NCBI GenBank assembly: GCA_020724775.1
Contig: DYGG01000026.1
Span: 1-45,854 of the forward strand
Length of the DNA: 45,854 nt
Direction of reading: 5' to 3'
Source of the DNA: Ignavibacterium sp.
GTDB lineage: Bacteria > Zixibacteria > MSB-5A5 > GN15 > PGXB01
Part shown: piece after piece, positions 17,618-29,571 of the stretch
How the letters are laid out: each line of letters opens with the position of its first letter
Numbering within the stretch: position 1 is the stretch's first letter
Notes under the pieces: generated by a model
Told to the model about the DNA's origin: nothing
The model's input: the letters and a program-made list of their open reading frames with translations, nothing else
The model's database searches: none
Program-made: the position numbers and the translations under genes

Positions 17618-18613
17618 CTATTGCCCGCTTTCGCTACCCAGGCCGAACAATTCCAACTGGTAAGCGATTAATACGACCGAGCCGATACCACCCAGAACCC
17701 CCAGCCAGCCGGTAACCGAATCAATCCCCAAAAATCCTCGACTTCGCCGGTTAAGCACTATGGTATCCTCCGGTTTGAGGAAATACCGTCCCGGTGCGCC
17801 GCTGCTTTGGTATCTTTTCAGGTTATATTGAATCACCTGCGCCGATGTTCCATCCTTGGAAATAACCGTCACATTCTTCAGGTCAGCGTACTGGGTCGGT
17901 CCACCGGCCAGCGCGATGGCGTCAAGCAAATCAATATTACTTTCCATCGACAGCGGTCCGGGCCTTAGAATCTCTCCCATTACGTAGAAGATATTCCTCT
18001 GCGCCATCTGGTCGGTCAGGGTTCGCGCCGGGAGCCCCGCCGGGGTCGCCGGAATCTCAATCGAGTCGCCGGGACGGACTTCCGGTAGTTCGTTTCGTTT
18101 CCCCGATGTCACCAGCGCCGAGACATTGACCACCTCGACTTTGCCGGCATCGGAACCGCCGCGGATAATCATTACCCGGCTTAGGTCGCCCATATCGGTG
18201 GCTCCTCCGGCTTCATTGATAATTGTCCAGAGGTCCGGCATTTTCTCAAAGGCGTATTTGCCGGGCGTCCGCACCTGTCCCGACACAAAAACCCTCAAGT
18301 GATTGTATTCGACCACCCGCACGACTGTTTGAGAGATGGCGCTGTTGAAGCGGGAAATCTGCCGGATTATCCGCCGCTCCAATTCCTGTGTTGTCAGTCC
18401 CGCGGCTTCGATTTCACCTGCAATATCGAGCGATATCATTCCGTCCTGCCGCACTTTTACCACCTGGTCGAGCGTTCGGTCCTGCCAGAAGCGAATTTCC
18501 AGAACATCGCCCGGTCCAATTTGATAAGCCTGTCCGTATGCCATACCGCCAAACAGCAGAATCGCCGCCACTGCCGCCAGCAGCCCAATTTTCATCCTGA
18601 AATTTCCTGTCAT
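17618..18613 (-). CDS. SLBB-domain polysaccharide export protein
   Basis: This 331-residue protein has a signal peptide (MKIGLLAAVAAILLFGGMAYG, from an in-frame ATG at 18595). The polysaccharide export (Wza N-terminal) domain begins YQIGPGDVLEIRFWQD. Two SLBB-type segments follow, VFVSGQVRTPGKYAFE and IFYVMGEILRPGPLSM. A C-terminal hydrophobic helix (WLGVLGGIGSVVLIAYQL) could be an outer-membrane helix like that of Wza. It lacks the lipobox Cys of Wza. The protein would form the export channel for a surface polysaccharide. It is first of the polysaccharide block (SLBB-TPR-kinase-deacetylase-DUF362), after a 127-bp AT-rich gap that probably holds a promoter. Confidence 0.9.
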   Translation of the reverse strand: MTGNFRMKIGLLAAVAAILLFGGMAYGQAYQIGPGDVLEIRFWQDRTLDQVVKVRQDGMISLDIAGEIEAAGLTTQELERRIIRQISRFNSAISQTVVRVVEYNHLRVFVSGQVRTPGKYAFEKMPDLWTIINEAGGATDMGDLSRVMIIRGGSDAGKVEVVNVSALVTSGKRNELPEVRPGDSIEIPATPAGLPARTLTDQMAQRNIFYVMGEILRPGPLSMESNIDLLDAIALAGGPTQYADLKNVTVISKDGTSAQVIQYNLKRYQSSGAPGRYFLKPEDTIVLNRRSRGFLGIDSVTGWLGVLGGIGSVVLIAYQLELFGLGSESGQ

Positions 18614-18740: not shown

Positions 18741-20429
18741 TTAGCGGCTGTACCCGGGTCGTCGATAATCAGGCTGATACATTCGCGAAAGATTCCCTCC
18801 CTCTTCTTTGGCTTGCAAGAGCGCCATATCGGCCGCATTAATCAATTCGTCAATTTCCTCGGCATCTTCCGGATAGACGGCCGCCCCGATGGAGACCGAA
18901 AACTTGAAATCGCTGGAAATCCCCTCCCCGGCGGCATGCTCGGAAGCGATTTTCACCCGGAACCGCTCCATAAACAGCAGCGCCTTATCCCGGTCCGCCT
19001 CCGGAATTATGAGGCAAAATTCATCACCGCCATATCGAGACGCGACATCTATGGCGCGCACCGATTTCGTCAATATCTTCCCAAAGGCTTTCAGAATGGC
19101 GTCCCCGGCGAGATGTCCGAACCTGTCGTTAATGCTCTTCAAATTATCTATGTCCAGAATCATCAAAGCCAGGGTGCGATGATACCTCTTGGCGCGCTGC
19201 ATTTCTTCTTCCAGTCGTCGGTGAAAATAACGGAAATTGTGTAGTCCGGTCAGACCATCGGTATATGACAAGGCTTCAATCTGCTCAAAGTGATAGGCGT
19301 TCTCGATCAAGGGCATCGCTTCCATGCGGAAACGTCGGAGTTTCACGGCGACTTCTTCGGGAGATTTTTCTCCGTTCCAGAGAAGCAACGCTCTTCTGTC
19401 TTCTACCCAGGAAAGCGCTGTCAGATATCGCAAACTCCCCGATTTTATCGCCTTCGATTCCGCCGCGTCCAAGCCCAGATTATTATTATCCTTAAAATCG
19501 ACTATCGTTTCCGGCTTTACCGCCGCGAGAAGAGAATCATACTGGCCACGCAGGATGCGGTCTGTTTCCTCCGGAAGATTCCAGTTTACCGCAAAGACGA
19601 CATCATCGACCTTGCCGGAAGTAACGTAAAATGCCATTTTCGAAAACCCGCAATCTTTTCGCAGCCCGGCGATCAGTTCCGGGACCAACTTTTCGCAGTT
19701 TTTTATCCGAAGCAGACGTGGCATTTCGGTGCGATACTCTCCCCCATCCTCAAGCGCGGCGGCTTTTGTTGCTGAGGATTTGTCCCGAGAGGACTGCAAT
19801 GCCCGCACGCGCTCTTCGAACTTCTTCAACTGCTGCTCCTGAATACCGATATGATAGGCTGCCGAAAGATTGAATGCCAGAGCGGTGGAAAGAAATTTCA
19901 ATGAGCGGTCATCAAGAGGAAGAGAAGTTTTGATGAAATAAACTCCGTATAGATTTTCTCGCAAAAAAACCGGAAAGAACGCCGACATTTCCAGGGCTTC
20001 TATAGTCTTCAATGTCAAGTCCGGCAGAATTTTGCGAAGATTCCCAGTCCGTTCCAGATGGGAAAATTTCTTTAGGTGACCCTGAATCTCCGGAGTCAAC
20101 TTAAACGAAACCGCCGCCCGGTCAACTCTTATCAGCCCGTGCAGGTAGTTTACCTCCAACCGACCTTTGTAATACCGCAGAAATAGAATTCGCTCACACC
20201 CCAGAAATTTCTTCAGAATATTGGAAACCCGTCCGGCAATATCCTGCACCGCTCCCTCTCTGATATTATTCGCTATGGCGGACAGCAGTTCGTTGATGGC
20301 GTCCTCTCTTAGAGGAATGGTTCGTCGGTCCCGAATCTTGCGAATTATTATCAAGGTCGCCAAAATGACCACCAGGAGCGCCAGGACAATAATTAAGACT
20401 TTCTCTGCCATAAAGTTGAGATAATCCAC
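18741..20429 (-). CDS. Membrane-bound GGDEF diguanylate cyclase with GAF-like sensors
   Basis: This 562-residue protein starts with a transmembrane helix (about 9-29). Two GAF-like regions follow (about 45-195 and 230-370), then a GGDEF domain with DGLTGLHNFRYF, LDIDNLKSINDRFGH and an intact GGDEF at 467-471. The inhibitory I-site Arg458-x-x-Asp461 lies exactly five residues before it, so product feedback is likely. It should make cyclic di-GMP at the inner membrane. The start is GTG at 20429 with a GAGG ribosome binding site. ATG at 20411 is an alternative. It lies between the partner-switching genes and the polysaccharide export genes, consistent with c-di-GMP control of exopolysaccharide. 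Confidence 0.93.
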   Translation of the reverse strand: MDYLNFMAEKVLIIVLALLVVILATLIIIRKIRDRRTIPLREDAINELLSAIANNIREGAVQDIAGRVSNILKKFLGCERILFLRYYKGRLEVNYLHGLIRVDRAAVSFKLTPEIQGHLKKFSHLERTGNLRKILPDLTLKTIEALEMSAFFPVFLRENLYGVYFIKTSLPLDDRSLKFLSTALAFNLSAAYHIGIQEQQLKKFEERVRALQSSRDKSSATKAAALEDGGEYRTEMPRLLRIKNCEKLVPELIAGLRKDCGFSKMAFYVTSGKVDDVVFAVNWNLPEETDRILRGQYDSLLAAVKPETIVDFKDNNNLGLDAAESKAIKSGSLRYLTALSWVEDRRALLLWNGEKSPEEVAVKLRRFRMEAMPLIENAYHFEQIEALSYTDGLTGLHNFRYFHRRLEEEMQRAKRYHRTLALMILDIDNLKSINDRFGHLAGDAILKAFGKILTKSVRAIDVASRYGGDEFCLIIPEADRDKALLFMERFRVKIASEHAAGEGISSDFKFSVSIGAAVYPEDAEEIDELINAADMALLQAKEEGGNLSRMYQPDYRRPGYSR

Positions 20430-20477: not shown

Positions 20478-21176
20478 TCAGCCTTGATGATGTCGCTGGC
20501 GGGCGTAACGGAAGCGGGCGCGGCGAGAGACAAGATGATTCTTGCGGAGAAGTTTGAAGATTCCCCACCAGCCGATTTTCAGACCGGGATGCGCTTCTTC
20601 CAATACCATCTTTAGTTCGCCGATGGTATAGAAGGGGTCTTGCCGGATAGCGCCAAGAACCAGTTCCTCAGTCTCGTCGAGATAAGACCGGGAGGTCGCC
20701 TGGCGTGAAGCCGCAGCGGTGCCGCCCCCTTCTCGAGAGGTAAATCCAGGCAGTTCCTCAATGGTCGTGCCGGAGAGGCGGGCTATCGGCTCTTTTTTTT
20801 TTAGCGGGTCGGTCCCCGCCGAGCCGCCGAAAGAGGATTTGGCGCTGCTGAGATTTTCATAACTGGTCAATATGTTATCAAACTCCAGGAGTTCGTAAAT
20901 CTCCTTCACATTCGGCACCATATTGGCAAGTTTTATGTCACCCCGGTTCTCCCGGACTTCTTTAATACGGGAGATGAAAATACCCCATCCCGCGGACGAA
21001 ATATAATCTACTCCGGCAAGGTCAAGAATGATATTGAACCGCTCTCGTTTCAGCAGTCGCTCCAGCACTTCTTCCAGTTGCGATGCAGTCAGGGTATCGA
21101 TAACTCCGTCCACCCGGACGACCGACACGGTATCTTCCCGCCCCCCCTCGGAGACTGAAATTTTGATATTCTCCAT
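20478..21176 (-). CDS. STAS-domain protein with C-terminal winged-helix-like segment
   Basis: The start is taken at ATG 21176 (MENIKISVSE); an upstream TTG at 21200 adds eight residues. Residues 1 to about 105 are a STAS domain of the anti-sigma-antagonist type, with the phosphorylatable serine pair Ser60-Ser61 in DYISSAGWG. A low-complexity linker (about 105-165) contains a lysine triplet coded by a ten-A run. The last 66 residues (TEELVLGAIRQDP, TIGELKMVLEE, GIFKLLRKNHLVSRRARFRY) look like a winged helix with a basic wing. The upstream gene encodes an RsbW-like kinase plus SpoIIE phosphatase, its likely modifiers. The STAS call is firm. DNA binding by the tail is inference. Confidence 0.85.
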   Translation of the reverse strand: MENIKISVSEGGREDTVSVVRVDGVIDTLTASQLEEVLERLLKRERFNIILDLAGVDYISSAGWGIFISRIKEVRENRGDIKLANMVPNVKEIYELLEFDNILTSYENLSSAKSSFGGSAGTDPLKKKEPIARLSGTTIEELPGFTSREGGGTAAASRQATSRSYLDETEELVLGAIRQDPFYTIGELKMVLEEAHPGLKIGWWGIFKLLRKNHLVSRRARFRYARQRHHQG

Positions 21177-21259
21177 AGCCGCAATTATAATCGATACCAA
21201 CTCAAAATGGCACTAAAAAATTACAGAGAAAATATTGAAGAAAATGCGAGTAATTCGAT

Positions 21260-23266
21260 TCAGTTGTGCTTTTCTATTTCGATGCGAATTTCGTTTTCTG
21301 TCGCGACCGGCGGGCAGCATTTCAGGGCGACAAAAGTTATATCGTCATTCTGGACCGCCATTCCGGCATGGCGGTCAATATCCTCCAGTACCAGCGCGGT
21401 AACTTCCTTAGGACTGACCGAGGAATTCATGGCGACCCGCTCCCGAAACAGGTTTAAGAGCCGCTCCATGCCATATTTCTCCCCGGTGCGGCTCATCGAT
21501 TCGGTTATGCCGTCGGTGTAAATAAAAACAATGTCGCCATCTTGAAGTTCTATCGCCTGCTCCCGTAATTTCAGACCGAAATCCTCCGGCCGGTCCAGGG
21601 GCAGTCCAAGCGGCACCCCGGACGGATTAATCAGCTCCACTTTCTTTTCGCGGTTCTTGAAATAAAGAAGCGGATTATGCCCGGCAGAGACAAAATTCAA
21701 GGTTCGGTTTTCGCTGTTAAAGACACCAAGACAAATGGTAATAAAGATTCCCGGGGGAATATCGTCGAGAATGAAATTATTGACCGCCTCCAGAATCGCA
21801 TGGGGAGTTTCCTTTCCCTTTGCCTGGGTCTTGATTACGGTTCGCAGCACCGACATCACCAGTGACGCCGGTATTCCTTTTCCTGAGACATCGGCCACCA
21901 GGAGGCAATAATGCCTCTTATCTATCGGAAAGACATCATAGAGGTCGCCGCCGATTCGTGACGCCGCCCGGTAGAAAGCATCCAGTTGCAGACCGGGGAC
22001 CTCCGGCAGTTTGCCGGGAAGGAGCATTTTTTGAATCTGCCCGGCCACCTCTATTTCTTTGGCGACCCGCTCCCGCTCTATGATATTTTCCCGGTCGCGG
22101 CGCAATCGGCTCATCATTTCATTCAACGCTTTGGATATTTCAAAATATTCTTCCACACCTTCCAGAGGAAGTTCCGTCTCGATATCTCCGGAACTGAATT
22201 TGCGGACTCTCTCGGTAATGCGCACAATGGGACTTACAAAATAATTGGACAGCAGATAGATTCCGCCGATGCCGATAGCCAGCCCTATCAAAGTCAAGAA
22301 TATGATTCTCTGCCTTTCCGCATCGATTTCAGCCAAATACAGCTCACCGGTGTAAACCATCTGGATACCCCCCATTTTCATCTCCCCGCTCTTGACCTCC
22401 CGGTAAAGGTAGTACAGTTCTCTTTCGCCGTTGCCGAATTTCTGCGGCACGCCGGCTGCCTGACCGTCAACATTTTCGGGCGGCTCAAATTTCTTATGGA
22501 GATTCCTGATATCACGAGTGTCGGCAAGGATATTACCTGATGAATCTGTTATCACCAGCCAGATCAACTCGGGATTGGCTTCAATATAGCTAATCGCCAA
22601 TTCGTCAAATTCAACATCGGACCTCCGATTCAAAACGAATCCCGATGCCTGTGCCGCCACCGTTTTCGAAAGAGCCGTGACCGTGTCATGCAGATGCTCA
22701 CGGATTCCTTTCACGCTTCGCTCGTTGATGAGAATATATGCCCCGGCAATAATGGTCAGCATAATGACGAAGGTGTAAACCGAGAATTTCACCCGCAGGG
22801 TGAACATCCGCCCCATGAACAGGCGCGCCTTCTCCGGCTGGCGCGAAATCAATTTGGTCATGCGAAGTTCGTTGAAACCGGGGGCAGATATGTACTCCAC
22901 CGAGTCCATTATCTTGCTTATCATGTAGAAACCCAGCCCCCCCTTGCGACCCGATTCGACAAGTTTCTTCAAATCCAACTTGGTGTCGGTATGCGGCTGG
23001 AAAGGGCGTCCAGTATCCATCAAGGAGAACACAATCCGCCGCTGGTATATGACTATCCGAATGCGGACAAGACCTTTTTCGTACAAGTAGGCGTGGCGGA
23101 TGATATTTGTTACACCTTCTTCGATGGCAAGGGTGACTGCCGTGGCATCCTTGCGCGTCATTCCGGCGTTTATGCAGGTCTCGCGAATTAGATTCTGAAT
23201 CGAAGGCAGAAACTGCTCTTCCGCCTGATATTCAGCATGAATTTCTTTTATCGGCTTGTTGAACAT
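21260..23266 (-). CDS. RsbW-type kinase / HAMP / SpoIIE-RsbU phosphatase fusion
   Basis: This 668-residue membrane protein starts with a cytoplasmic HATPase_c domain of the RsbW/SpoIIAB type (about 1-140). It shows the N-box AIEEGVTNIIRHAY (47-60, Glu50/Asn54), the G1 box MDTGRPF (83-89) and GGLGFY (109-114). Transmembrane helix 1 is at about 161-181, followed by an extracytoplasmic sensor-like region (about 182-320), transmembrane helix 2 (321-341) and HAMP (342-395). A PP2C/SpoIIE phosphatase (about 400-650) has metal-binding residues Asp441 (GGDLYD), Asp459 (VADVSGKG), Asp585 (TDG) and Asp641-642 (DDITF). Opposing kinase and phosphatase activities on one sensor would set the phosphorylation of the STAS protein encoded 83 bp downstream. 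An N-terminal kinase ahead of the membrane segment is uncommon; the usual order is phosphatase then kinase. Confidence 0.93.
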   Translation of the reverse strand: MFNKPIKEIHAEYQAEEQFLPSIQNLIRETCINAGMTRKDATAVTLAIEEGVTNIIRHAYLYEKGLVRIRIVIYQRRIVFSLMDTGRPFQPHTDTKLDLKKLVESGRKGGLGFYMISKIMDSVEYISAPGFNELRMTKLISRQPEKARLFMGRMFTLRVKFSVYTFVIMLTIIAGAYILINERSVKGIREHLHDTVTALSKTVAAQASGFVLNRRSDVEFDELAISYIEANPELIWLVITDSSGNILADTRDIRNLHKKFEPPENVDGQAAGVPQKFGNGERELYYLYREVKSGEMKMGGIQMVYTGELYLAEIDAERQRIIFLTLIGLAIGIGGIYLLSNYFVSPIVRITERVRKFSSGDIETELPLEGVEEYFEISKALNEMMSRLRRDRENIIERERVAKEIEVAGQIQKMLLPGKLPEVPGLQLDAFYRAASRIGGDLYDVFPIDKRHYCLLVADVSGKGIPASLVMSVLRTVIKTQAKGKETPHAILEAVNNFILDDIPPGIFITICLGVFNSENRTLNFVSAGHNPLLYFKNREKKVELINPSGVPLGLPLDRPEDFGLKLREQAIELQDGDIVFIYTDGITESMSRTGEKYGMERLLNLFRERVAMNSSVSPKEVTALVLEDIDRHAGMAVQNDDITFVALKCCPPVATENEIRIEIEKHN

Positions 23267-23331: not shown

Positions 23332-25161
23332 TTATTCCTTACCCTGCATCCGTAAACGGGCCTGTTCGATATTGTTTATAGTATTCTTGTTGCCCGGGTA
23401 ATATTTGAGCACTTCCTGCCAGAGAATTATCGCCTTTTCATAGTCGGCACTCCGGAAATGCTCCAGCGCCTCCAGATATATCTTCCAAACACGGTCATCT
23501 TTCTGCAAGTCTTCAAGTTCGGTCGCTTCCTTCATCTCGGTTAATATCCGGTTCATATAATCCTGGGCGACCAGGTTGCCGGGATCTGATTTCAACACTT
23601 CCTCAAATCGCGCTTTGGCGTCGGACAGATTCCCCAGGGCATACAGTTCGGCGCCCTTGCTTATGAGTTGGGCATTATTCAGTATGGTTCCGTTACGGGC
23701 AATCATCTGTTTCACCGCCACATTCCCCGGCGAGAGTTCCATTACCCGGTTATAATATGTTACGGCATCAGCATACCGGCCTTCTCGTTCCGCCTTGGCG
23801 GCGTTATCCATCATTCGGCGAATCTCAGAATCGCGGGCTTCAAAGACCTGATTGCGCAGTTCGACAAATTTCTGATTTTCAGGCGAAATCCCCAGCCCGA
23901 TATTGATAATGTCAAGTGCGGCCGCGTAGGAACCCTTCTTGTAAAAAACTTCTGCCTGAGAGAAATAACTGTCCAGAATCGGCTGGGTCATTTCTCGCTG
24001 TACCAATTCTTTCTGCGCCCGCTCAGATATCATCCGCCGCATATCATCGATATGGTCAATCCGGTTACGCACATCACGGTCGTTTTCATTATATGCCAGC
24101 GAACGTTGATAATAGACATATGCCGAATCAATGGAATTGCTTCGGTAATATTTGTCCGCCAGTCCTTTGTAAAACTGGAACTGCCGCCGGCGGTCGTCCA
24201 GTATCAACGTACTGCCGCGGGCGCTCTCCAGTTCCTTCTGCCGCTGGATTTTTTCCGAAACCGACATCCCCACTTTAAACGAAAGCCCCAAACGATGTGA
24301 ATCATCTATGCCGTCAAGAAACTTATAGCCGTAATCAAGCCGCAACCTTTGATACTGGAATCCCAGCCCGAAGGTAAAATTGTCCCGGTCGTATCCGGCG
24401 CGGAGTGATAGGGTTCGGCGGTAAACTGCCTCCAGACCCATTCTGACTTTGAGACTTCGCTCTTCCGGCTTTTCAAGTGAGATGCCGAGATTATGATACA
24501 AGTCTCGTCCCAGCGGAAACTCCTTCACCCCTATTCCGAGTATGACCGTGGTGGGGGTGACTTCCGATTCTTCGCCTGTCCGGAGTTTGGGTGATATAAT
24601 GTCTTGAAAAGTAATGCCGGCGTTTAAGTATCGATAGAGATTCCGGTAGAACGAAATATCCAGCCCGGCGCCATAAGAGGAATTATTGTCCATTGTCTGA
24701 TTGACTATCTTAAGAGCGGAGCCGACCGCAAATCCACCCTCCAACCTTCGCCCATAACCAAAGAGCATCTGCCAGGTGAAATAGGAAAATTCCCCCATCT
24801 CCCGCCAATCGCGCCGTTTCAAAATATCCCCCGTTCCCAGGCGCATGAAAGAGACGCCGAATCCGCCGAAACGCTCGTGCGGATATACATAAGATACCAC
24901 GTCGTATATGCTCCCTTCGAACAGGCTGAGATGCATCAAGTTGAACTCCTGCTGGTCAAGAAGGGTCAAGGCGGCCTGATTCCAGAATATCGCCGAGGCG
25001 TCATCCCCCAGCCCTACAAACCCTCCCCCCATACCGAGCGCCCGCGCTCCCGAACCGATAGAAAACTGCGACTCCCGGCCGGCATCACCGGCTGTGATAG
25101 ACAGTACCGGCGCCATAATCAGCGCCGCAAACACGATAATCAGAAGGCCGATGCGCTTCAT
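23332..25161 (-). CDS. PorV/PorQ-like outer-membrane barrel fused to TPR domain
   Basis: This 609-residue protein has a signal peptide. A PorV/PorQ (UPF0164)-type beta-barrel of about 290 residues opens with SIGSGARALGMGGGFVGLGDDASAIFWNQAAL, the family hallmark split here across residues 34-65. Its later strands alternate aromatic and polar residues (LGFQYQRLRLDYGYKF). From about residue 310 the sequence is TPR-like helix pairs, ending ALEHFRSADYEKAIILWQEV. PorV is the outer-membrane shuttle of type IX secretion; other family members have unknown roles. Its ATG overlaps the stop of the large Ig-repeat gene (ATGA), so the two products are probably made together and may act together. The barrel-TPR fusion is distinctive. 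Confidence 0.88.
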   Translation of the reverse strand: MKRIGLLIIVFAALIMAPVLSITAGDAGRESQFSIGSGARALGMGGGFVGLGDDASAIFWNQAALTLLDQQEFNLMHLSLFEGSIYDVVSYVYPHERFGGFGVSFMRLGTGDILKRRDWREMGEFSYFTWQMLFGYGRRLEGGFAVGSALKIVNQTMDNNSSYGAGLDISFYRNLYRYLNAGITFQDIISPKLRTGEESEVTPTTVILGIGVKEFPLGRDLYHNLGISLEKPEERSLKVRMGLEAVYRRTLSLRAGYDRDNFTFGLGFQYQRLRLDYGYKFLDGIDDSHRLGLSFKVGMSVSEKIQRQKELESARGSTLILDDRRRQFQFYKGLADKYYRSNSIDSAYVYYQRSLAYNENDRDVRNRIDHIDDMRRMISERAQKELVQREMTQPILDSYFSQAEVFYKKGSYAAALDIINIGLGISPENQKFVELRNQVFEARDSEIRRMMDNAAKAEREGRYADAVTYYNRVMELSPGNVAVKQMIARNGTILNNAQLISKGAELYALGNLSDAKARFEEVLKSDPGNLVAQDYMNRILTEMKEATELEDLQKDDRVWKIYLEALEHFRSADYEKAIILWQEVLKYYPGNKNTINNIEQARLRMQGKE

Positions 25162-28100
25162 TTCAGCACCGCCATTTTCAATTTGTGACTCTGTCCGGAT
25201 GTCCCTTCCCTGAATACAACGACATAGACTCCATTGAGTACAATTTTCCCTTTGTCATTCCGACCATCCCAGGTGACATAGTTGGCTCCTTGACGACCCC
25301 CTTCGCTTCCGGCGGCAAAGACCTTTTCAAAGACTTCTTCACCACTAAGGGTGTAGATCGTCATGGTAACGGTTTCGTCAGCGGCCAGACTGTAAGCGAT
25401 CTCAGCGCTTTCCCGATTGGGATTGAAAGGATTGTTCCGCGCCATGAGCGAATGCCCCAGTGACGGGGGAGTAATAATGAAATTTCCACTAAGGCGAAAA
25501 TTGCTGTCGAATTCGCCTCGAACCGGGACCGGTTGAGTAATCCGGGGACCGGAGGCAAAGACGGCGCTAATGTCACGATTTTCCAGCCTTAATCCGAAAC
25601 CGTTCACTTCAATCTCATCTCTGAGACGCGCCTTAAATCTTAACAATTTCTCTTCCTGCGAATGCATCAGAAAGTTCTCAAAGCGAAACTGAATATAGCC
25701 GCCGTCGGTATCGCCGTACGCCACTGCCGCGCCATTCGATAAAAACGCTGTACTTTCCGGTATCAAAATGGCGCCGGGCTCGAGCAGGTTGTCCCGATTG
25801 TCGGTAAACATCAATTCTATCGCCAGAAGCCCCACCACATTGAGAGGATTGTCGGTATTGTTTCTTAATTTCAGTTCAAAAAGAATCGGTGACGACCCCT
25901 CTATCACAAGCGGTCCCTGCAACACCTGTCCTGAAACCACCAACTCGGCATCGCCCGGCTCGACCCGGATAGGAATTACCGCCGAGCCGACCTTTACTTT
26001 CGCCGGCAGGCCGGTGTTCCGGTCAATCGGAATTGTTGTCAAACTCAATTGGAGGTTTGTACTGACCGAGAAAGACGGCGCAATCATATTGAAGTTGGCA
26101 ATGCCGCCGATTTCTACGGTTTGAGAAGAGGGGTCCGGAATTCCGAAATCGACACCGCCGGTTGAAAGAGTTATTTCTCCAGGCAGAGCGCCGGCTTCAC
26201 CCAGGTTCCGAAGTCGCGCCGCCACGACGAAATTTTCTCCAAAATCGACGTACCCTTCATAAACCCCACTCAGGGTATAGACCAACTCAATTTCCGCCGG
26301 CGATTGTATCGAAACTGCAGCGGTATTATCATCCGATGGTATAGTTGTGGCAAAAGGAGAGCGGACCGCCGAGCGGTAAATTTTTATCGGGACCGAAAGA
26401 GATTCCGCCGTCAGAGGAAGAGAAATCTCCAAATCCTGCATCGGATTCAGATTATTGCCGGTACTGGTTGCCAGGGTATCCAATCCATCCTCGGAAACAA
26501 TCCAGAGGGTAACATTTGATATTGGCGCATCGGAAAGATTGCGTACTGTCGTTTTAATCCGAAACTCCTGCCCATAGTTGACAAAAGGGGGATTGACTGT
26601 CTCCAGTTTGGTCGAGACTATCTTTATTTCCGGAAGTCCGGTCACAAAGATATTTTCGCCTTTGAAGGCAATTGTGTCAATCCGTGTGGTATAAAGTTCC
26701 GTTCCTCTGGTTATCAGGCGCGGTATCAACTGCTGATCCAGCAATTCAAGAGAGATATAAATCTCTCCTGTCGTGATTTTGTTGCGGCCCGGATGAAGCA
26801 CAATCGGATTTCCCTGAAGCCGTGCCTCCAGAGTTCGGTCATATCCAATAAGTTGAAAAAGTGACCGGGCCGAATCCAGAGTAAGGTCGGTCGAACCATC
26901 CAGTTCAATGCTAAACTCGAAACGGCGTGTTTCCCCGGCCGGAATCACTCGTGGCAGCAAACTAAATCTGTTGTATGAGAGCGTCCCCCGGGGAAGAACA
27001 TATAATGAATCAAAGTCGGATATTCTTTGACGAAGGACAATTCCTTCTGACGAGCGCATGGTTATGTCAGCGGAGATGTACTTGTATCCTACGGCGAGTT
27101 CTTCCTCTATCTCAGGAATCTGGAAATAAGCACCGGATAGAGTCAGAATTCTTCCATCTGTGGACACCGTGACTGATTGTCCGGAGTCGCTTATTGCCAC
27201 TTCGGTACTATCGCTTCGCCTGAGGAAGTAATGAGCGCTGATGCTGTACTGCAGCGGGTCAATGGGGTGGTTCAATTCCATTTCCAACGAGAAGGGAGGA
27301 GTAACAGATGGCGCAATGACCGAATCAAGGGTCAGTGAGTTAGGAATATACTGGATAAGGAGCGAATCGAGCAGATATATTCGATGGGTCAAATGCTGGC
27401 GCGCAAAATATTCGGCGCCGTTCAAGATATATCGGGATAGAATTCCCAGTTGTAAGGTATCTTCGCTGTTGGGCATCAAATAGGTCGTATGTTTCTGCAA
27501 TCGTACACATATGTCTGTACCGGGCAGTGGCGGCTTAAGCACCAGCAGCGAGTCACTGCACAAGTCGCCACAGGAAAGAAACTGTGAAGTGACAATCGCC
27601 GGTGATTGGGGGGGTAGGTCGCCGTCGTTTATTATAGACAGGTTCAGGTCAAGATGCTGCCCGGCGAAAATTGTATCCGACGGCGAGGTTCGGAAAGCCA
27701 GATGAAGCCCATTATAGAACAGGTCAACGATATTGCTGGTAATATCCCCCGAAGAAGCATAGATATGAATTATTCCAGCCGGCCCGTCGTAAATAATCTC
27801 GTTGAGCGCAGACGTAGCGACTCCCATTTCAAAGTCGTCTTTCTCATCGAGAACCCCATTTAGAAGCGAACCGTGGTCGGCGCTGAATATGACCGGGTTT
27901 ACGGAGGCATCATAATCTGTTTTCAGATTGCCAAAGCGGTCAATCATGGTAAGAGACGCCTCTCCCAGAATCGGATTGCCGAGGAACTGCGTAGCAGGAA
28001 TAACCAAATCCATCCGTCCCAGTTCTCCGGGCAAAACGGCTGTCTCATATTCTCGGGCAACCGAATCAACCGCTGCTTTCAGTACATTGGTACCGGCACG

Positions 28101-29477
28101 ATAAAGATATTGCCCGGCCGCTCCTTCGCCGTCTATGACATAAATATCATTCAGAATCGGGGGGAATCCATGCGGGGAAACGCCGTTAGTCAGAAGCGTA
28201 ACCGTCGCAACGCCCGAAGCGGCATTGCCAAAGCGGTCCACTGCCTCCGTAATCCGCAGTTCCAGGCGCTCACCGGCGGCAACCGGTCCCCTGCCTGTAA
28301 GTACAAATGAGGAGATTTTCCCGGGAAGAACTGTTATCGGGCCACTCGTGCCCAAGATGCTTCCGTCGGTGCAGGAAATAGTCTGGAAGCCGGACGATTT
28401 GAGAATGAAATTATTTCCAGAAAAAAGATGCTGTCCGCTATCGGTAATTTCGAATTGATATTGGTTCAATTCGTTGTAATAGAATTCGCCGTCTTCATCG
28501 GAAGAGATGAAATAAACGGCGCCATCATAATCAAGAACCTGATTCCCGAAAAGGTCCACGGCGCGCACCATCACGGGAGCAGAAAAAATCTCTCCGGCTC
28601 TGACAGTCGGAGGATATGAAATTATCTCAAAATCTGCGACTATTCCCGAGATAACCGTGATAAGCCCCGATATCGCAGTCAAGTTTTCCAGGCTCGCCTG
28701 CACCTGTCCTTGTCCGAGCCCGGTGGCAAAAAAATAACCGGAAGTCACTTCACCGATCGGGTCGGAATCATCAGTCAGGCTCCACTCCAGCGAGGAATCA
28801 TTTATGGGATTTCCGAAACGGTCAGTAACAAGAGCTGCGAAATAAAAAGTCTGGCCGGCGCGAATAGTTACGGCCGTGTCCGGTGAAACGGTCAAGGCAA
28901 AGGGGACATCTGCCAAAATCGGAAAACTTTCCGACAGAGTGGGGCCAAATTCCACTCGATACCACTTGTTGAATATCAATCCGGCGATCTGATAATTCCC
29001 GGCCGCTACCGGATTCCTTATAGAGCGTATGGTGAACGTCACTTCTGTTCCGGCCGGCGGAGATATCCCCCATCTGAAGAACAGTACAATAATATTGTTC
29101 TGAATATAGACTTTTCTTATCTCTAAATCTTCGCCACTGTAAGTGTCGGAATATTCAATCTCGCTTATCTGATTTAAGCCAAACGACGACGGGAAACTGA
29201 AAGAGACTCCTCCCAGTTTAGGAATACCGCCCGTTGGCAATGTCATCTTTAACTGGTACTGCTCCCGTCGGTCAACGATTCCTGACTCCGGTATTACCTG
29301 CAATCGTGGCAGAGGTGGTGTCACCGAAAGCGCCATATCCCCTACAAATTCCCCCTCCAGATTCCAGAAGAAGATCTCCTTAAGCGAATCAGGAATGGAA
29401 TATTCTATCTCCACTGCCGATACGGCGGTGGAAGATAGAACTATGGCTGCGAACAAAAATAGGGTAAAAATTCTCAT
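25158..29477 (-). CDS. Giant Ig-repeat surface protein with FlgD-like C-terminal domain
   Basis: The start is ATG 29477 (MRIFTLFLFAAIVLSSTAVSA, signal peptide), giving about 1,439 residues; the frame is open to 29513. Four Ig-like (Big-1/invasin-like) modules carry a D-(R/L)-FGN motif at about residues 219, 308, 414 and 513, spaced near 100. The middle and later regions hold CARDB-like adhesion modules (YGQEFRIKTTVRNLSD, FGENFVVAARLRNLGE). The end has NPFNPN, then a FlgD-Ig-type domain with VTWDGRNDKGK and a final Lys, resembling type IX-type C-terminal domains of FCB bacteria. It is probably a secreted or surface-attached adhesin or scaffold. A 269-bp spacer upstream should hold its promoter, and the PorV-like gene follows by overlap. 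Confidence 0.85.
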   Translation of the reverse strand: MRIFTLFLFAAIVLSSTAVSAVEIEYSIPDSLKEIFFWNLEGEFVGDMALSVTPPLPRLQVIPESGIVDRREQYQLKMTLPTGGIPKLGGVSFSFPSSFGLNQISEIEYSDTYSGEDLEIRKVYIQNNIIVLFFRWGISPPAGTEVTFTIRSIRNPVAAGNYQIAGLIFNKWYRVEFGPTLSESFPILADVPFALTVSPDTAVTIRAGQTFYFAALVTDRFGNPINDSSLEWSLTDDSDPIGEVTSGYFFATGLGQGQVQASLENLTAISGLITVISGIVADFEIISYPPTVRAGEIFSAPVMVRAVDLFGNQVLDYDGAVYFISSDEDGEFYYNELNQYQFEITDSGQHLFSGNNFILKSSGFQTISCTDGSILGTSGPITVLPGKISSFVLTGRGPVAAGERLELRITEAVDRFGNAASGVATVTLLTNGVSPHGFPPILNDIYVIDGEGAAGQYLYRAGTNVLKAAVDSVAREYETAVLPGELGRMDLVIPATQFLGNPILGEASLTMIDRFGNLKTDYDASVNPVIFSADHGSLLNGVLDEKDDFEMGVATSALNEIIYDGPAGIIHIYASSGDITSNIVDLFYNGLHLAFRTSPSDTIFAGQHLDLNLSIINDGDLPPQSPAIVTSQFLSCGDLCSDSLLVLKPPLPGTDICVRLQKHTTYLMPNSEDTLQLGILSRYILNGAEYFARQHLTHRIYLLDSLLIQYIPNSLTLDSVIAPSVTPPFSLEMELNHPIDPLQYSISAHYFLRRSDSTEVAISDSGQSVTVSTDGRILTLSGAYFQIPEIEEELAVGYKYISADITMRSSEGIVLRQRISDFDSLYVLPRGTLSYNRFSLLPRVIPAGETRRFEFSIELDGSTDLTLDSARSLFQLIGYDRTLEARLQGNPIVLHPGRNKITTGEIYISLELLDQQLIPRLITRGTELYTTRIDTIAFKGENIFVTGLPEIKIVSTKLETVNPPFVNYGQEFRIKTTVRNLSDAPISNVTLWIVSEDGLDTLATSTGNNLNPMQDLEISLPLTAESLSVPIKIYRSAVRSPFATTIPSDDNTAAVSIQSPAEIELVYTLSGVYEGYVDFGENFVVAARLRNLGEAGALPGEITLSTGGVDFGIPDPSSQTVEIGGIANFNMIAPSFSVSTNLQLSLTTIPIDRNTGLPAKVKVGSAVIPIRVEPGDAELVVSGQVLQGPLVIEGSSPILFELKLRNNTDNPLNVVGLLAIELMFTDNRDNLLEPGAILIPESTAFLSNGAAVAYGDTDGGYIQFRFENFLMHSQEEKLLRFKARLRDEIEVNGFGLRLENRDISAVFASGPRITQPVPVRGEFDSNFRLSGNFIITPPSLGHSLMARNNPFNPNRESAEIAYSLAADETVTMTIYTLSGEEVFEKVFAAGSEGGRQGANYVTWDGRNDKGKIVLNGVYVVVFREGTSGQSHKLKMAVLK

Positions 29478-29571
29478 AACTTGGTAAATCAACTGTATCA
29501 CCGATTCCAGCAAAGATTATGCCTTAACCTGTCAATCTTCCAGACGGCAACTAAAATACCAATTGTTCGAG

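Follow-up and report, generated by a model that had tools for sequence, protein, structure and literature searches.

A candidate slippage site in the STAS-HTH partner of a predicted membrane kinase-phosphatase in Candidatus Zixibacteria

How might a single membrane protein carrying both a kinase and a phosphatase set the state of its STAS partner, and on what would that partner act? The question is raised by two adjacent minus-strand genes in the 45,854-nt contig DYGG01000026.1, the whole stretch of DNA analyzed here (the window). Our preferred reading, to which we assign a probability of about 70%, is that the genes encode a membrane partner switch and that slippage at a conserved run of ten A residues (A10) yields STAS-only and STAS-HTH (helix-turn-helix) forms of the partner in families f1 and f2. 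The support for both parts is comparative sequence evidence, in which domains, conserved residues, gene order, run conservation, frame lability and off-frame stops are read directly, and from which we infer the activities, the slippage, its transcriptional nature and the outputs.

The first gene (21260-23266, minus strand) encodes a 668-aa bifunctional sensor with the order HATPase_c_2 kinase–TM–sensor–TM–HAMP–SpoIIE phosphatase as read from Pfam searches together with an AF2 model based on 47 homologous sequences, bearing out the anatomy given in a preliminary description of this locus, together with the STAS gene downstream. The serine-kinase domain (aa 16-138, 22853-23221; E 3.5e-22) has the N and G boxes of an RsbW/SpoIIAB-type ATPase intact, and E49/E50, N54, D84, G86, R107 and GGLG 109-112 are invariant in the 47 fusion homologues, so the loss of the ATP site across homologues that was named as refuting the idea was not seen. 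The extracytoplasmic sensor region between the membrane segments (about aa 188-318, 22313-22705) is Cache-like at most, with sCache_3_2 falling below the cut-off, and is modeled as an alpha/beta periplasmic region between two long helices. It is followed by a HAMP domain (aa 338-389, 22100-22255; E 2.2e-7) and a SpoIIE/PP2C phosphatase domain (aa 450-649, 21320-21919; E 2.8e-45), for which the metal-binding aspartates D441, D459, D585, D641 and D642 are invariant in the same 47 sequences. Foldseek returned Rv1364c RsbU-RsbW, SiaA-PP2C (the second best PDB entry), RssB and SpoIIAB as the best solved relatives. Matches at E<=1e-30 occur in 132/132 Zixibacteria genomes, about 100 of them full-length, and the fusion is an orthologue conserved phylum-wide in Candidatus Zixibacteria, the phylum to which named relatives assign the present genome. 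One membrane enzyme would probably both add and remove phosphate on the STAS partner, and it is plausible that a single external sensor sets net phosphorylation: an extracytoplasmic signal would be converted into the phosphorylation level of the adjacent STAS protein by the 668-aa protein's own kinase and phosphatase domains.

The kinase-first order itself had been put forward as the novelty of the locus. Fused versions with the kinase after the phosphatase are indeed found in HsbR/CrsR and Rv1364c, but SypE of Vibrio fischeri is a kinase-REC-phosphatase protein that acts on a STAS protein (PMC10120452). Like the fusion described here, SypE combines an N-terminal serine kinase and a C-terminal PP2C in one polypeptide with a STAS target, and the SypE-SypA pair controls polysaccharide biofilm (PMC10120452, PMC4517449). 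The two differ in their input, which in SypE is a central REC fed by a phosphorelay and here comprises two TM helices, a periplasmic sensor and HAMP, and in their partner, SypA being STAS-only whereas the partner here is a STAS-HTH protein with a candidate slippage run. This two-frame STAS-HTH gene is a more unusual feature than the domain order.

The STAS-HTH gene lies in ORF 20478-21200 (minus strand), which has a Pfam STAS match at 23-120 (E 1.6e-18) and a likely start at the ATG at 21176; the in-frame long form (20478-21176), delimited by Pfam, alignment and an AF2 model, is 232 aa. Its STAS domain (aa 1-117, 20826-21176) is SpoIIAA/RsbV-like (PF01740/ant_ant_sig), being nearest to anti-anti-sigma factors, and S60 and S61 are invariant in 37 STAS homologues. 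In the AF2 model, the C-terminus consists of a disordered linker and then four helices, forming a domain (aa 162-232, 20481-20693) with transposase-type HTH similarity. Transposase-type HTH families were matched in Pfam by 37/63 relatives of this domain (best 3.4e-6); the window's own domain has a best match of 0.018, making its HTH identity weak by sequence, and a PDB profile search with the STAS C-terminus gave nothing significant (best 0.065). A winged helix was considered and discarded, the model having four helices and no wing strands. Going by the modeled fold and these weak family matches, the HTH form could bind DNA. The HTH domain, the A10 run in the linker and the GGDEF domain of the third gene of the cluster are all absent from the preliminary description.

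Within the linker, KKK is coded by an A10 run (20793-20802 on the minus strand, T10 on the plus strand) in the context ...CTAAAAAAAAAAGAG..., a candidate slippage site conserved as A9-A11. The STAS gene of families f1 and f2 was found in 57 loci, one of which (L055) is cut by a contig end, leaving 56 readable. A run of at least nine A at the frame junction is kept in 55/56 (46 A10, 8 A9 and 1 A11), and the exception (L134/G050), which has lost the run, is also the sole f1 or f2 locus without the HTH. Among 323 other genes of the same loci (465.8 kb), no A-run on the sense strand exceeded 8, and of 27 KKK stretches in neighboring genes not one was coded AAAAAAAAA, although AAA makes up 55% of Lys codons. 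Across all contigs of the home genome there are only three isolated A10 runs, one in the STAS-HTH gene and one in coaBC. In deeper families, 22 loci have no run, and the HTH is in frame in all 22.

The downstream HTH ORF is likewise conserved, and its frame relative to the STAS domain is labile. Read through the run, 22 loci, including the window, have the HTH in frame, whereas 29 require one additional A (+A) and four the loss of one A (-A) to reach it (the frame state of L072 was taken from its translation); in 33/55 run-bearing loci, the HTH can therefore be reached only via a one-A indel, in one direction or the other. On the fusion-protein tree, a quick tree with SH-aLRT support only, we count at least 10 changes between the in and out states.

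Homopolymers are typical of phase-variable regulators and surface genes (PMC3711429), and replication slippage in the DNA could in principle alter the run length and toggle the HTH in subpopulations. We regard this as highly improbable. In a phase-variable gene the length of the run varies and sets the frame; here length is near-constant (46/55 A10) and A10 is common to out-of-frame loci and all 22 in-frame loci, the two states differing mainly by fixed flanking indels, with the run itself still A10. The same device is also present in the housekeeping gene coaBC (see below). Many of the genomes, which are species representatives, are MAGs, and single loci may carry errors; the difference between L140 and its near-identical sisters L138 and L139, for example, may be such an error. 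As a general cause, homopolymer assembly error was rejected, since A10 occurs in both states, the flanking indels differ and single-contig assemblies show both states; assembly errors are unlikely to explain the pattern across 55 loci.

The off-frames are closed soon after the run. In the window, the loss of one A (or gain of two) leads to a TAG at 20783-20785 and the gain of one A to a TGA at 20758-20760 (both minus strand, by frame reading), giving a STAS-only product in either case. Among in-frame loci, 19/22 have stops in both off-frames within 12 codons of the run versus 6.5 expected from synonymous resampling, and among out-of-frame loci both off-frames are closed within 12 codons in 31/32 versus 11.9 expected; the corresponding figure for random control stretches is 17%. 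These stops are partly inherited among related loci, so that P-values overstate independence and the expected numbers are the more useful comparison.

We therefore turn to how the two forms could arise. In the reading that we favor, RNA polymerase (or, less likely, the ribosome) would slip at A10 between STAS and HTH, so that the STAS gene of f1 and f2 would be read in two ways: one fraction of product would be STAS alone, ending a few codons past KKK, and another would be STAS joined to the helix-turn-helix domain. Close parallels exist in the programmed transcriptional slippage of Thermus and Chlorobi dnaX and Shigella mxiE/spa13, which also have A9-A10 runs with joined and truncated products (PMC5009743, PMC3711429). 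Thermus dnaX (A9, one ORF, stops in both other frames) resembles the in-frame STAS-HTH loci, and Chlorobi dnaX (A10, two ORFs) resembles the out-of-frame ones (PMC5009743, PMC3711429). In contrast to these genes, the gene here encodes a STAS regulator and has switched repeatedly between one-ORF and two-ORF versions in one clade, and coaBC carries the same device.

Programmed -1 ribosomal frameshifting would be the principal competitor to polymerase slippage as the source of both forms: A_AAA_AAA is a classical -1 heptamer (PMC3711429), and 29/33 out-of-frame loci require the net -1 shift (+A) that it would give. Four loci, however, require -A, the run is maintained at 10 and not 7, and both off-frames are closed in both frame states. 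Moreover, we found no RNA structure downstream of the run (mean z -0.23 over 55 loci) and no excess of Shine-Dalgarno sequences near it (10/55 loci), so such a shift would act without a stimulatory signal of either kind. The lack of structure and of a Shine-Dalgarno excess, together with the use of both +A and -A, favors transcription over stimulated -1 ribosomal shifting, and the occurrence of both shift directions has been used before as an argument for transcriptional realignment (PMC3711429). We consider ribosomal frameshifting unlikely as the source of the two forms and, weighing it directly against transcriptional slippage, put the odds at about three to one for the latter. Slippage at A10 is thus probably programmed and transcriptional in kind.

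A literature search for slippage in Zixibacteria found no paper, and the main text of the GeneTack paper does not mention STAS, anti-sigma, phosphopantothen-, dfp or trmE.

To our knowledge, programmed slippage is known in few cellular genes, mostly with a single frame state on view. Here one clade offers both the in-frame and the out-of-frame version of one gene, with at least 10 switches between them, which opens the selective value of the homopolymer and the off-frame stops to direct test.

The run in coaBC of the home genome (G000:C83:20498-20509, L166, P0001) lies exactly between CoaC and CoaB, and the CoaC|CoaB linker carries an A9-A11 run in 44/50 coaBC loci (L168-L217). The outgroups sampled have no such run (A7 in G065, none in G075). 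In 15 loci CoaB requires +A. CoaBC makes CoA, and the shift in the out-of-frame genomes is therefore presumably productive.

Out-of-frame genes might instead be the result of plain fission, with STAS and HTH separate genes that have their own starts and an incidental run. Some out-of-frame STAS loci do have a GTG or TTG near the run, and coaBC of G043 and G044, which has no run, resembles a true fission with an ATG. Against this, eight out-of-frame STAS loci offer the HTH no ATG, GTG or TTG in its own frame upstream of the domain, and the same is true ahead of CoaB in 14 of the 15 out-of-frame coaBC loci; only these three start codons were considered, and rarer ones are possible, as in the clade's mnmE genes, which seemingly start at ATT/ATC/ATA. 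Moreover, no locus has a stop in the HTH frame between the run and the domain, and the run is retained. Fission thus appears most improbable, and a shift at the run remains the reading that we prefer.

For mnmE itself, an A9-A10 run lies ahead of the reading frame in 13/30 loci read (L261-L290). Five f1 genomes (L218, L223, L229, L235, L245) have an ATG followed by A10 and a long ORF in another frame. This case is less clear, because other mnmE loci, including that of the home genome, seem to use those rarer starts after a Shine-Dalgarno sequence. Taking the three genes together, we see an even chance that A10 transcriptional slippage is a clade-wide expression device, acting in STAS-HTH, between CoaC and CoaB and near the mnmE start, and that the slippage ratio is a regulatory setting that splits STAS into soluble and DNA-binding forms under one kinase-phosphatase. 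If so, slippage would set the dose of the predicted DNA-binding half of a partner-switch antagonist, in a phylum with few cultured members. In practical terms, more than half of these STAS-HTH genes and roughly one coaBC gene in three are liable to be annotated by gene callers as broken or split.

What the STAS protein acts on is suggested by its neighborhood. The third gene of the cluster (18741-20429, minus strand; Pfam, synteny) encodes a diguanylate cyclase with an N-terminal TM segment and a C-terminal GGDEF domain, the fourth (17618-18613, minus strand; synteny) a Wza-like polysaccharide export protein, and the sensor gene, with its TM-HAMP-PP2C architecture, is on the same strand as the cyclase gene in one adjacent cluster. 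The order FUS>STAS>DGC>WZA (fusion, STAS, diguanylate cyclase, Wza-like) is found in 49/78 loci, and the cyclase matches retain GGDEF/GGEEF in 56/60. Linkage of a STAS gene to the fusion, the lack of which the preliminary description named as refuting its idea, holds for the most part: FUS>STAS adjacency occurs in 61/78 loci (12 of these without the full four-gene order), STAS is not at that position in 17, and the STAS-HTH orthologue of families f3 and f17-f19 is unlinked, elsewhere in the genome. In f3 (L077-L081), no STAS gene lies between the fusion and the cyclase, and the distant STAS-HTH orthologue has no A run.

As had been noted, no sigma factor gene is nearby: Sigma70_r2 is absent from the contig, which removes a nearby sigma factor as the output. 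The genome has 15 Sigma70_r2 genes elsewhere, and these, with the kinship of the STAS domain to anti-anti-sigma factors, would allow an ordinary fused partner switch whose STAS output is a distant sigma factor and whose run has no function. We give this very little credence, as little as fission, given the conserved DGC/Wza neighborhood and, for the run, its conservation, its absence from neighboring genes and the lability of the frame.

Under the partner switch that we prefer, the cyclase and the Wza-like exporter, present in 49 loci, make an output like that of HsbRAD or SiaABCD likely. HsbR-HsbA-HsbD of P. aeruginosa and CrsR-CrsA of Shewanella likewise unite kinase and phosphatase in one protein with a STAS-type antagonist, and HsbR acts on HsbA, which when phosphorylated binds the diguanylate cyclase HsbD, an output for biofilm (PMC6482189); here too, a cyclase gene is in the cluster. 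HsbR and CrsR differ in having REC-PP2C-kinase order and response-regulator input in place of a membrane sensor, and no HTH is reported there for the antagonist (PMC6482189), whereas the antagonist here has one. SiaABCD of P. aeruginosa shares the sensor phosphatase with two TM helices, HAMP and PP2C, a kinase, a SpoIIAA-like substrate and a diguanylate cyclase (PMC7647112), and SiaC activates SiaD (PMC8457831, PMC7647112). In SiaABCD the kinase is a separate protein (SiaB) and the substrate is of the SiaC family, whereas here the kinase is fused and the STAS domain is PF01740/ant_ant_sig; SiaC is phosphorylated on Thr68, and the portion of the text consulted (PMC7647112) describes no HTH form or slippage site. 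By analogy, the STAS protein probably acts on the neighboring GGDEF protein and hence on exopolysaccharide: STAS would control the cyclase, as HsbA and SiaC do, the most likely outputs would be the neighboring diguanylate cyclase and exopolysaccharide genes, and the HTH form would contribute a DNA-bound or localized function.

Upstream of the switch, most loci have genes for a PorV-family TPR protein and a large secreted-looking protein (23332-25161 and 25158-29513 in the window, minus strand). In some deeper families (L085-L100), the kinase-phosphatase is extended at its C-terminus by about 300 aa, and its gene is separated from the STAS gene by one for a ParA-like ATPase (examples L087:7110-8000:- and L087:6328-7113:-). 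The L087 extension, the sole one scanned, matched HTH_28/HTH_32, and this HTH-bearing extension and the ParA-like gene again hint at a link to DNA or the chromosome.
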